From Gyrodactylus bullatarudis (Eukaryota; Platyhelminthes; Monogenea; Gyrodactylidea; Gyrodactylidae), in assembly GCA_012064415.1 (NCBI GenBank), contig SSNU01000061.1, positions 124,001 to 188,000 on the forward strand: a DNA stretch of 64,000 bases. The letters are read 5' to 3'. The position numbers and the translations under genes were made by a program. The stretch's first letter is position 1. Every line of letters begins with the position of its first letter. Shown one piece after another: positions 1-45,070 of the stretch. The notes under the pieces were generated by a model. That model did not search any database, had not been told where the DNA came from, and was given only the letters and a program-made list of their open reading frames with translations.

Positions 1-2882
1 TCTGGATACAAAAGTTCAAACTCTAGACGATAGTTTTTGGCAAGTGATTTGGAATTAACTCTAGGATAAAGTCTGAAAAAGAAGGATTAGATTAACTGAA
101 TTCATTTTTGAATTGAAATATGGAAACTAACTGATTGATTTCTGCAATTTCAGCTTGATATTGCTCGACCATGGCTTCAGAAAATAGTTGGTTTGGTGCA
201 TTATAAGAGTTTGAGGTTTGATCATTTAAAGAGAGATCATTGTTCGAGAAAATGCGTTCAGCAGAAATACCACAATGTACGAGTTGAATCTTATTCATGG
301 ACTCATCATCAATAAAAATGCTAGGTGAGTTTTCATTATTGCAGTCAGATTTTTGTTCAATTTTTTTATGTATCAGTGAAAGATTGAGGGCAGATGAAAC
401 ATTATCTTTTTCAAAATATGGATTTGATCCAGGATTTTCATTGGATTGAATAAATTCGATATCGTGAGATTTTTTGGGTTTTTTATGAATTTTGAGTTTC
501 TTTTTAGGCTCCAAGTTGTTAAATAGCTCTTTTTCGCTCTCTCTCTTTGTTTTGTTTCTCGAACCTGCCTTGGATACTTGGTTTTGACAAATCTTGTCGT
601 TATTCAAAGATTGGGAGTTGTTATCATTACTTTTATCTGTACTTTGATAGGTGCAGTTTTTAAAATCTTGATTGAAATTGTCATGGTTATTGATATCTTT
701 ATAGTCAATATTGTAAGATTTATTTTCAACTTTTCTTGTTTTTTGAATGACATAAGGCTTTGATGTAGGAGTTTGGTCACAATCACTAATATCCATTTCG
801 TCATCATTGTTAAACCGATCAATTGGCCTTTGGTATGATGACATTGAATTGGTATTGTGTTTTTCATTTTTAATCTCTATTTTCGAAGGGATAGTATTCG
901 TAATGGACTTCTTTACATCATCGTTAAGATTATTATTTACAGTATTATTCAATCGATGATTATTTTGAAAATTATTAGCGGCAATAGTTGATGTGATATT
1001 GAGAGAATTCTTTTGCAAATTTGAGACATTATTTGTGGAAGATTGTGTGATGAGATTTTTTGGAGACTCTTGAGTAAACGGAGTTGAATTTTGATTTATT
1101 ATGGAACTTGAACCACTACATGGCGTATGTTCACTACTTTCTCCTCCGCTTCCCAAATTAACTGAACTAAAAAAATTGTTGATAAGAAAAAAGAAGAAAA
1201 TAGTAAATATCGATAAATAAAAAATTACAAATAAAATAAATCGATTTCCAGTCTAATTTTTTGTTAATGGATTTCAAAATATTCTTTTATTTTCATTAGT
1301 AAAAATCAATTAAGTAATTTATGAATTGATTTGCAAAAGAGAATATCTTCAGAAGGAATTAATTCTGTATCGATTTAAATGCACTGTCGCATACTAACTG
1401 GTAAATATTTGAACTATCATGTGAATTATCAAAAAGTAAACTGTGTTTTTTGAATAATTAACACAATTATTAAAACATACCAAGCTATGTATGGACCTTG
1501 AGTGGTTTTGGCAATATTGCTAGTTTGAGAAATAAGACATGTATTGACGGCAAGTGAATTGTCAACTCGTTTGTAATCATCAACGCTTGATAATTGCGTA
1601 TCGATTTGGGATTGCACAAAATCTTTGAGGAATGGATTGTTTTCTTTTTTTGAAGCACGCAATCGACTGCGTGAACCAGGAAGGCGAGGAGCGGTTGAAA
1701 CTCTTTTCATGTCATAGTTGTTTTCAGAATCACTTTCCTGCAAAATGTCATTCGCAGATTTTCGAGGGCTTTTTTCGCCACTATTGTTAGGATTCTTTAA
1801 GTTATGTAAGAATTAATATTTATTAGAAAAAAATCAATCAAATTTGAAATAGATTTATAAAAAATCATTAATATATGAGAAATGAACATTCATATGAAAG
1901 ATTTTGTTAAGTACACGTTAATTGTGAGACCTTATTTGCGTATCAGATGTTAGAACTTTGCCAACTCAAAAGAGTCAATTAAGAAAAAACTAACTTTTTG
2001 ACTTATTTTTGTAACTTTTTCGGCACTATTACTTTTCGATTGATATCGTGAAAGCAATTCGAGGTATCCATCCTTATTCACTCTTGATACATCCAGAATA
2101 ATTTTTTGAAGCAGGGAAACATCATCTATTTGACACTCTTTTCGCAAAACGTTGACGAGATCAACCATTGTGAGAGGTTTTACAGAAAGAGTTTGGATAA
2201 TTTTCATCCTATTGAAAATAATTATAAACCAAATTTACTTTGGATTAACCGAATTCTTGGACTGATCTTTTATGAAAGATGCTAAATTAGGAAATTATAG
2301 AATTAATTAAAGTTACATTTTGCAGAAGGAAATTTGGAATGCTTAAATTCGTTCAACGTTTTTGTGGAATTCTTCTTAAGCTCATTATCGGCTTTAGCCA
2401 TTCGTTCACGTGCCATGGAGAAACTATCATCCTTAGCTTCGATTGTAATTCGGGATACATATTTACCATAAGATAATGTAGAGTTTCTACTATATTATTA
2501 ATTCTTTAGTATTTACCTTGAGAGCTGTAAACAATCATTGATTCCTTCAGCAGATCCTAGTTTAGAAAGTGAAAACGAATAAACAATCGGTTGAGGTCTT
2601 TCGTGCAAACTAGGAATAGTAATTTTCTATTTTGATAAGAAGAATGATCTTACTCCTTTATTTTGAGAGATTGATAGCTTGAATGTTGGTTCAGACTGAA
2701 TGAAAATAAGAAGAATTATTATATATTTCTTATAGATGGATATTTTCAAACAGTACTTGGGCAGAAAGTCGTTCTAAATTCTTGAGAGCAGAATCTGTAA
2801 GGCGGACATGATATATGGAGTGATCATTCGAAAAGCCGTTATCGATAAAATTTTCAAACTCAGGAAGATTAGTTTCAGACAT
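1..2882 (-). CDS. ELL: RNA polymerase II elongation factor ELL (3' end outside window)
   Basis: ELL suppresses transient pausing of RNA polymerase II as part of super/little elongation complexes in the nucleus. Nine exons chain in consistent phase: 2757-2882, 2654-2695, 2517-2626, 2317-2489, 2239-2281, 1995-2208, 1481-1794, 132-1166 and 1-72 (continuing off the window). The N-terminal part reads YHVRLTDSALKNLERL, then ITIPSLHERPQPIVYSFSLS, then ITIEAKDDSFSMARERMAKA, which parallels the ELL N-terminal domain (LTDSALRAFE, ISIP, KITVCATDDSYQKAR). Next comes the short helical block starting MKIIQTLSVKP. Exon 8 encodes a long Asn/Ser-rich linker with a basic patch (KKKLKIHKKPKK). Exon 9 starts the C-terminal occludin-like domain (SKSLAKNYRLEFELLYP). 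About 709 codons are inside the window. Introns are 61, 27, 27, 35, 30, 200, 314 and 59 nt. ATG at 2882 precedes the first conserved block directly; an upstream non-coding exon cannot be excluded. Confidence 0.88.
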
Positions 2883-43207: not shown

Positions 43208-43966
43208 CTAACCATTAGTTTTTGTATTAATCTTCTGGTAAATGACTCTTGATTTTGAGTTATACCTCAAGTATTGAATCAATACTAGAATATCAATGAG
43301 TATTTGAACAAGTCCACAAAATAAGAATTGCTTCGGAGCCTCTTTGGCGTAAAAGAATATACATTTGCCTAGATCACCAAATAACCAGAGAATTACCATT
43401 GTGACACTCATACCTTCAGTTGATTTATTTTCATAGTTCTTGAGCAGCTGAGGAAATCCAAGCAATGCCTCCAATGAGAGTGATATAAATCCAAGAAATT
43501 CGATAAAAAGTTGATAGTTTATCAGAAAATAAGTGGTAATGCAAGAAAAATATGCGAATAATGTAACGAAGAATATATAGGATGTAAAGTTTGTCCATTT
43601 CCAAAAATACTTGTAGTTAAAAACTTCAAGATATGTATTTTTTTCGTTTCTCTTGGAGTCCCTTTTACAAATCTCCCACAAAAGAGCGAGCATGACTAGA
43701 ATAATTACTAGAGATTGCAAGAAAAGTGGTAATGGATATTCTTTCCCAATTCTAATTGTTAAATATTAAAAAATATAAGCTAACCTGAAGCTGATTCGTA
43801 ACACACTTGCACTAATTAGAAGTAAACAAACGTAAGGAGAAAACCCTTGCTCATTATTTTGGGATTTTAGCTGGAAATATTGGGGTATAAATGGTATAGC
43901 TCCTCCAAAAATGATAAAAACATCATAGATGTGCCAGAATAGTAAAGATACATAAAAGTTTATCAT
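43208..43966 (-). CDS. SLC66A2: PQ-loop repeat membrane protein SLC66A2 (PQLC1)
   Basis: Two exons, 43785-43966 and 43208-43751, are joined by a 33-nt intron (GTTAGC...AATTAG) in exact phase and give 241 aa. Both PQ-loop signatures are present: GGAIPFIPQYFQLK with GFSPYVCLLLISASVLRI, and ALLGFPQLLKNY with STEGMSVTMVILW. This matches SLC66A2/PQLC1 in order and spacing (FGGVVPYIPQY; TEAMLGVPQLYRNH; QSTEGMSIKMVLMW). The family has seven helices and the protein is linked to endosome/Golgi phospholipid flippase function; substrate transport by this member is unsettled. ATG at 43966 gives a short N-terminus (MINFYVSLLFW). It shares a 139-bp spacer with the divergent SH3BGRL gene. Confidence 0.9.
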
Positions 43967-44105: not shown

Positions 44106-45070
44106 ATGACTATAAAAGTATTCGTTTCTAGTCAATCTGGTAATATGAAAGTCAAAAAACAACAAAATGATGTAACATTTTTGTTACGAGCAAAGAAAAT
44201 TGAGTTTGAAGAGATTGACTTAACTCATCCAAAAAACGAACTTATCAAATTTCAAGTTTTTGAAGAACTGAAAGCAAAGAATCTCCCTACACTTCCACCT
44301 TTCTTGTACAAGGATGATGATTTTCTTGGTCTTTATGAAGATTTTCATGATGCCATTGAAATGGAAGCACTAGATCCGTTTTTGAAGCTTACAACTAGCA
44401 GTGTAATTTATCTATGTTAATCCATAATTTTTCTAGAAAAGTTTTGAAGATATGCTGAAAAATGAAGTAAAATTTACTATTCATTTCGCATGGATCGCAT
44501 GAATATTTTTGGCATGATAACGTTTTATCTAAACTAAACGGTACTAATGAGTCTTTGTTTCAAGATTGTCGACGAAAAAATTGAACAGGATAAGGTAAGA
44601 TATTAATTCTTAATATTGTTAAGATTGAGGAAGTATCTGCATCTGTTGAGGATAAAACTCAAGAGGATGGAGCATCAAAAAGTTCTAGCCGAAAAAATTC
44701 CAAAGAATCTGAAGATAATGAGAATTCAAGAAAGTCTTCCGTAGCTGAGGACGACAAAGGCAGCTCAAAGAGTTCAAGAAAGTCTTCTGTTGCTGAGGAA
44801 AATAAAGAGAGCACAAAGAGTTCCAGGAAATCATCTGTTGCTGATGAAGAAGAGAAATCGAGTCGTAAAAGTTCAGTGGCTTCCTCTAAAAAGTCATCAG
44901 AAGAGAATGAAAGCAAATCTTCATCAGGCAGTCGTAAATCCTCTGTTGGGAATGATGCATCAGACAAGGACGAAGAAGATAAAAGTAAGAGTGATGGCTC
45001 AGAGAAAAGTTCTCGCAAATCATCAGTTGCAAGTGATAAGGAAAAGAAATCTGAAGAGGAGGAAGATTAA
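44106..45070 (+). CDS. SH3BGRL: SH3BGR-like thioredoxin-fold protein with phospho-repeat tail
   Basis: Exons 44106-44402, 44565-44594 (30 nt) and 44624-45070 join in phase 0 to give 257 aa; introns are 162 and 29 nt. Residues 1-95 match the SH3-binding glutamic-acid-rich (SH3BGR) family: MTIKVFVSSQSG, KIEFEEIDLTHP, then LPPFLYKDDDFLGLYEDFHD, a glutaredoxin-like fold without catalytic cysteines. The 30-nt exon encodes IVDEKIEQDK. The tail from about residue 110 is acidic and Ser/Lys-rich with six RKSSV units (mostly SSRKSSVA), each resembling a basophilic kinase site. Canonical vertebrate SH3BGRL is about 114 aa; invertebrate and SH3BGR members carry acidic tails. Convergent with FAN1, 115 bp away. 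Confidence 0.87.

Follow-up and report, generated by a model that had tools for sequence, protein, structure and literature searches.

The left end of the window (the whole 64,000-nt stretch of DNA analysed here) is taken up by a homologue of the RNA polymerase II elongation factor ELL, which lies on the minus strand at 1..2882, begins with an ATG at 2882 and has its 3' end beyond the window start; an ab initio prediction carries it on to C436:123706, C436 being the window's own contig. Five minus-strand introns have been placed in its 5' part: intron 1 (2696..2756; 61 nt, GT..CAG), which belongs to the second of two short size classes described below, followed by four microintrons that adjoin one another, namely intron 2 (2627..2653; 27 nt, GTAAG..ATAG), intron 3 (2490..2516; 27 nt, GTAAA..ATAG), intron 4 (2282..2316; 35 nt, GTAAC..TTAG) and intron 5 (2209..2238; 30 nt, GTAAA..ATAG). 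The acceptor of intron 3 reads ATAG|TAG, so that its length may be 27 or 30 nt, with the same frame either way. When the 61, 27, 27, 35 and 30 nt are removed, 236 codons stay open from the ATG, and retention of any single intron brings an early stop (5/5; after 50, 64, 93, 154 or 165 residues, with a frameshift in the case of intron 4). This model comprises 708 coding nt, and the maximum reachable in the 888-nt piece, when up to five GT..AG segments of 20-70 nt each may be excised, is 741 nt; 200 dinucleotide-shuffled versions of the stretch all fell short of that figure (median 260, maximum 651).

Introns 1-3 lie within the match of the spliced N-terminus to PF10390 (79 bits, E 5.5e-22, residues 20-140); without splicing, the best piece of the genome scores 34.7 bits. 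The spliced protein also aligns with the ELL2 chain 7okx_M (E 8.1e-8, residues 21-139), where each of these three junctions has a gap of 1-3 residues close by. Homology thus supports the removal of introns 1-3 but leaves their exact last base unfixed because of the gaps, and the prediction of introns 4 and 5, which lie beyond the Pfam match, rests on the open frame and splice signals.

Two further genes in the window contain one microintron each. The SH3BGRL homologue (44106..45070, plus strand) encodes 257 residues in a full open frame and matches PF04908 over residues 1-96 (E 1.1e-21). Its first intron (44403-44564, plus strand) is 162 nt long; the second and last (44595..44623, plus strand; 29 nt, GTAAG..TTAAG), which leads to a stop if retained, sits in a repetitive tail past the domain's end at residue 96, with no homology across the junction; it is predicted from its splice signals and from the open frame of 257 residues. 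A 48-bp tandem repeat of 2.7 copies (window 44721-44848) encodes part of this protein's Ser-rich tail. The PQ-loop gene SLC66A2 is represented by a two-exon homologue (43208..43966, minus strand; 241 residues, full open frame, PF04193 at E 3.3e-21) whose only intron (43752..43784, minus strand; 33 nt, GTTAG..TTAG) likewise introduces a stop when retained. Twelve homologues with 40-46% identity were found, in 11 of which the 33-nt junction is gap-free, the segment being absent from the twelfth; a search of solved structures gave weak matches (best E 0.0097).

About 2.7 kb past the right end of the window, on the same contig, a UMP-CMP kinase gene (C436:190656-191306) has two introns, the second of which is a 34-nt GT-AG intron. 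For the first, once the acceptor is placed so as to recover the conserved HLSAGDLL, three donors keep the frame open and give 29, 35 or 50 nt; the gene finder described below chose 50 nt, and frame and homology decide for 29 nt, with GCAAGT as a GC donor, the sole reading of the three to keep every residue aligned. The protein in this 29-nt reading, on which the alignment was run, matches UMP-CMP kinase 1tev at E 2.9e-50 over residues 6-188 with both junctions gap-free, and excision of the 29-nt and 34-nt introns yields one open frame, retention of either leading to an early stop (2/2). Intron 1 would most simply be a GC-AG microintron.

All six segments listed in the first-pass annotation are thus present where it had placed them, with lengths of 27, 27, 30, 35, 29 and 33 nt and GT..AG ends. 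Its statement that they keep the frame of conserved domains applies to three of the six (two in ELL and that of SLC66A2), ELL introns 4 and 5 and the SH3BGRL intron lying outside domain matches. The trend from tiny 5' to larger 3' introns that it described is seen in one gene, ELL, where the sizes run, 5' to 3', 61, 27, 27, 35 and 30 nt and then about 200, 314 and 59 nt (the last three ab initio).

Short intron classes in the host genome

The 77.3-Mb assembly, of 471 contigs, includes a mitochondrial genome (contig C13; 14,926 bp, 26% GC, flatworm code) whose 12 protein genes all lie on one strand and run cox3-cob-nad4L-nad4-atp6-nad2-nad1-nad3-cox1-(gap)-cox2-nad6-nad5, the neodermatan order; the genes were named by eye except COX1 (Pfam), from ORFs of at least 70 codons, a threshold too coarse to judge atp8. 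Under the flatworm code, COX1 shares 89% identity with a record of Gyrodactylus albolacustris and 83-84% with three further monogenean genera, Macrogyrodactylus, Cichlidarus and Paragyrodactylus; identity is at most 71% for the others among the best 120 of 7995 matches. In size and AT content the molecule resembles published Gyrodactylus mitogenomes, and published Gyrodactylus nuclear genomes span 67-91 Mb (PMC12677651). The genome is accordingly assigned to Gyrodactylus or a closely related gyrodactylid. An origin in a dicyemid was rejected, since the mitochondrial genome forms a single 14.9-kb contig and COX1 falls with Gyrodactylus.

A purpose-written gene finder was trained and first run on 244 kb of the window's contig (349 kb). 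The main survey covered 304 kb in five stretches on four contigs, or about 0.4% of the assembly, and GT-AG was compared under the same model with eight decoy dinucleotide pairs. At 50-69 nt, 26 GT-AG calls were obtained (one of them the kinase intron, misplaced at one end), compared with a decoy mean of 2.7, and the second short class is clear from these ab initio calls. At 25-39 nt there were seven (3, 3 and 1 in the bins starting at 25, 30 and 35), while the decoys averaged 2.3 with a range of 0-6, the worst being TG-AG with six and GA-AG and GC-AG with three each, of which GC-AG is not a pure decoy. The valley at 40-49 nt stood at background (two calls; decoy mean 1.9), no intron of 38-46 nt was called in the 304 kb, and the long introns given by the gene finder there showed no excess over decoys. 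Ab initio calls taken by themselves give the micro class modest support, and the class rests mainly on cases backed by frame and homology; the ELL microintrons were missed by the gene finder.

Pooling the six microintrons of ELL, SH3BGRL and SLC66A2 with the two of the kinase gene and six gene-finder calls gives a non-random convenience sample of 14, with lengths of 26, 27 (four), 29 (two), 30, 31, 32, 33, 34, 35 and 37 nt and a median of 29.5 nt; the 34-nt kinase intron was also a gene-finder call, and two of the six called microintrons belong to low-scoring genes (33 and 20). The second class (n=25, every one a gene-finder call) extends from 51 to 67 nt with a median of 59 nt, and some of its members fall inside Pfam matches, two of them (53 and 57 nt) in an Mtr4-like helicase and one of 57 nt in an adaptor subunit. 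Among the microintrons, 12 acceptors are TAG, one is AAG (the TTAAG of SH3BGRL) and one is CAG; in the second class 16 are TAG and nine CAG, so that CAG is used in 1/14 and 9/25, respectively (Fisher p=0.064). The pyrimidine fraction at -18..-4 is 0.60 in the micro class and 0.69 in the second, both samples being small (n=14 and n=25).

Two calls were left out of both classes, one of 47 nt (C436:43159-43205) in an apparent retroelement and one of 49 nt in a gene with a score of 12. The stretch C436:39227-44318 is coding and retroelement-like, with protease- and integrase-like words noted by eye, and misled the gene finder. Farther along the contig, at C436:64143-75942, lies a run of neighbouring gene predictions rich in short introns (37-70 nt), which might be pieces of a single very long gene and may resemble BLTP1/KIAA1109.

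As a model-free length histogram, GTAAG..WTAG was tallied by total length on both strands of the whole genome, giving 4304 (20-24 nt), 4718 (25-29 nt), 4933 (30-34 nt), 4388 (40-44 nt), 4768 (56-60 nt) and 4325 (90-94 nt). These counts agree weakly with two peaks, at 25-34 and 56-60 nt. The excess at 25-34 nt is insecure because repeat copies inflate both of its bins, by eye adding about six (25-29 nt) and about 13 (30-34 nt) among roughly 100 places listed for each; the 56-60 nt bin appears less touched. Reversed-pattern controls gave 13836, 12593, 12350, 13053, 12703 and 12590 in the same bins, always far above the pattern itself because base composition differs, and are unusable as an expected number. 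For GTAAGT..TTTCAG at 22-52 nt no excess over the reversed control was found (548 vs 1011).

Nature of the segments and their removal

On sequence evidence, the segments are very probably ordinary U2-type spliceosomal introns belonging to the flatworm microintron class, in a gyrodactylid monogenean genome; the major spliceosome is indicated by their GTAAG-like donors and AG ends. If they were instead mostly retained, as regulated stop-bearing inserts acting in nonsense-mediated decay or the control of splicing and not as constitutive introns, each would have to halt translation, and every tested intron does stop early if kept (five of five in ELL, the microintrons of SH3BGRL and SLC66A2, and two of two in the kinase gene), as a retention switch needs. 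Such stops are, however, expected by chance in AT-rich introns, and default retention would disrupt conserved genes (ELL, SLC66A2 and UMP-CMP kinase), which makes mostly retained inserts very improbable. Readings other than introns, whether indels in the assembly, decay of a pseudogene or spacers passed over by bypassing or a programmed frameshift, are harder still to credit, to the point of being negligible: nothing was found in their favour, and all eight segments (the six in the window and the two of the kinase gene) start like donors, end in AG and recur in unrelated conserved genes.

A milder doubt, which is unlikely to be borne out and nonetheless deserves more weight than either of these, is that some junctions are off by a few bases, in which case single lengths would be wrong and the class would still be real. 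The two equally fitting lengths of ELL intron 3, the residue gaps near the ELL junctions, the SH3BGRL acceptor as the only AAG of 14 and the kinase intron that was called at 50 nt and later settled at 29 nt all speak for some displacement of this kind; against it, the SLC66A2 junction and the two kinase junctions are gap-free relative to their homologues.

As ordinary spliceosomal introns, the microintrons would be removed by the major spliceosome through intron definition, with the U1 and U2 snRNPs assembling across 26-37 nt, and an intron of 27 nt would have to be recognised as one unit. The polypyrimidine tract would have little room, so that U2AF65 probably binds weakly or can be dispensed with, and the choice of the 3' splice site may depend on a short run of AT-rich sequence that in most cases ends in TAG. 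Human short introns whose polypyrimidine tract is truncated, in which SPF45 replaces U2AF65 (PMC8363638), may serve as a model for the microintrons here. U2AF2 is present in the genome, which does not separate these mechanisms. The U2AF large-subunit gene (C344:30782-32164, minus strand) consists of one open frame of about 502 aa and is apparently intron-free over the matched part. The size floor would most likely reflect spliceosome geometry following deletional shrinkage in a small, AT-rich genome.

A bolder reading, and a doubtful one, holds that short introns in this lineage are quantal, at about 29 and 59 nt in a 1:2 ratio as in tapeworms (36 and 73 nt; PMC5036155), and that this would reflect two fixed spliceosome geometries, both shifted shorter in gyrodactylids. 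It would imply two modes of recognition, a compact one for the microintrons, needing neither a complete polypyrimidine tract nor contact with U2AF65, and a normal one for the second class; the medians of Dicyema (27 bp) and Intoshia (57 bp) match one size each (PMC6543705).

A length of 26-37 nt leaves scant room for the signals of the 5' splice site, branch site and 3' splice site, and an animal rich in such introns would be a handy system for studying minimum intron size and dispensable splicing factors. A default minimum intron length in annotation will break such genes, as noted for Clonorchis (PMC6530080).

Comparison with short introns of other animals

The first-pass annotation had placed the segments near the lower limit for animal spliceosomal introns, which agrees with their spliceosomal appearance and with the 26-37 nt class in the 304 kb. 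They are not the shortest animal introns: in Dicyema sp., the median intron is 27 bp and two thirds are below 30 bp (PMC6543705), although an assembly of D. japonicum gives a mean of 38 (PMC6736024). Likeness to dicyemids extends to many introns of about 27 nt and a small animal genome; in contrast to Dicyema sp., however, introns below 30 nt are here a minority beside those of 51-67 nt, which make up 25 of the 39 collected short introns, so that most of the introns collected are not below 30 nt. The orthonectid Intoshia linei has a median intron of 57 bp (PMC6543705). The short human introns with a truncated polypyrimidine tract that depend on SPF45/RBM17 resemble the microintrons in being short and perhaps in the truncated tract, and offer a candidate mechanism; the model case there, at 56 nt, is longer than the microintrons here (PMC8363638).

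Closer parallels are found among flatworms. In liver flukes (Opisthorchis felineus), short introns peak at 37 and 90 bp and introns below 75 bp account for about 34% of the total; microintrons, numerous in trematode genomes, are clustered, lie near the 5' end and have a weak polypyrimidine tract, other flatworms also possess microintrons of varying mean length, and two short peaks in Cestoda and Monogenea are credited to earlier work (PMC6530080). The present genome resembles the liver flukes in that some introns are much shorter than 75 nt, in its second short class and in several adjacent 5' microintrons in one gene (ELL); a weak polypyrimidine tract like theirs is at most hinted at here. 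Tapeworm short introns peak at about 36 and 73 nt, and bimodality is also recorded in Gyrodactylus salaris, so that two short classes have a precedent within the same genus; the shortest class (peak 1) lies toward the 3' end in tapeworms (PMC5036155), whereas the ELL microintrons are 5'.

In light of these descriptions, the "unusual" character attributed to the arrangement in the first-pass annotation cannot be upheld, as the two short peaks had already been described in tapeworms and G. salaris (PMC5036155) and 5'-clustered tiny introns in the liver fluke (PMC6530080). Within the part of the literature covered, no numeric short-intron peak was found for any Gyrodactylus. Both size classes (26-37 nt, median 29.5, n=14; 51-67 nt, median 59, n=25; small samples) appear shorter than the published flatworm peaks, including the 37 and 90 nt of liver flukes (PMC6530080), which would be new if real and possibly reflects the small sample. 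With a class of its own well below 75 nt, a second short peak and a flatworm host, the finding is another instance of flatworm microintrons, ordinary for the phylum.
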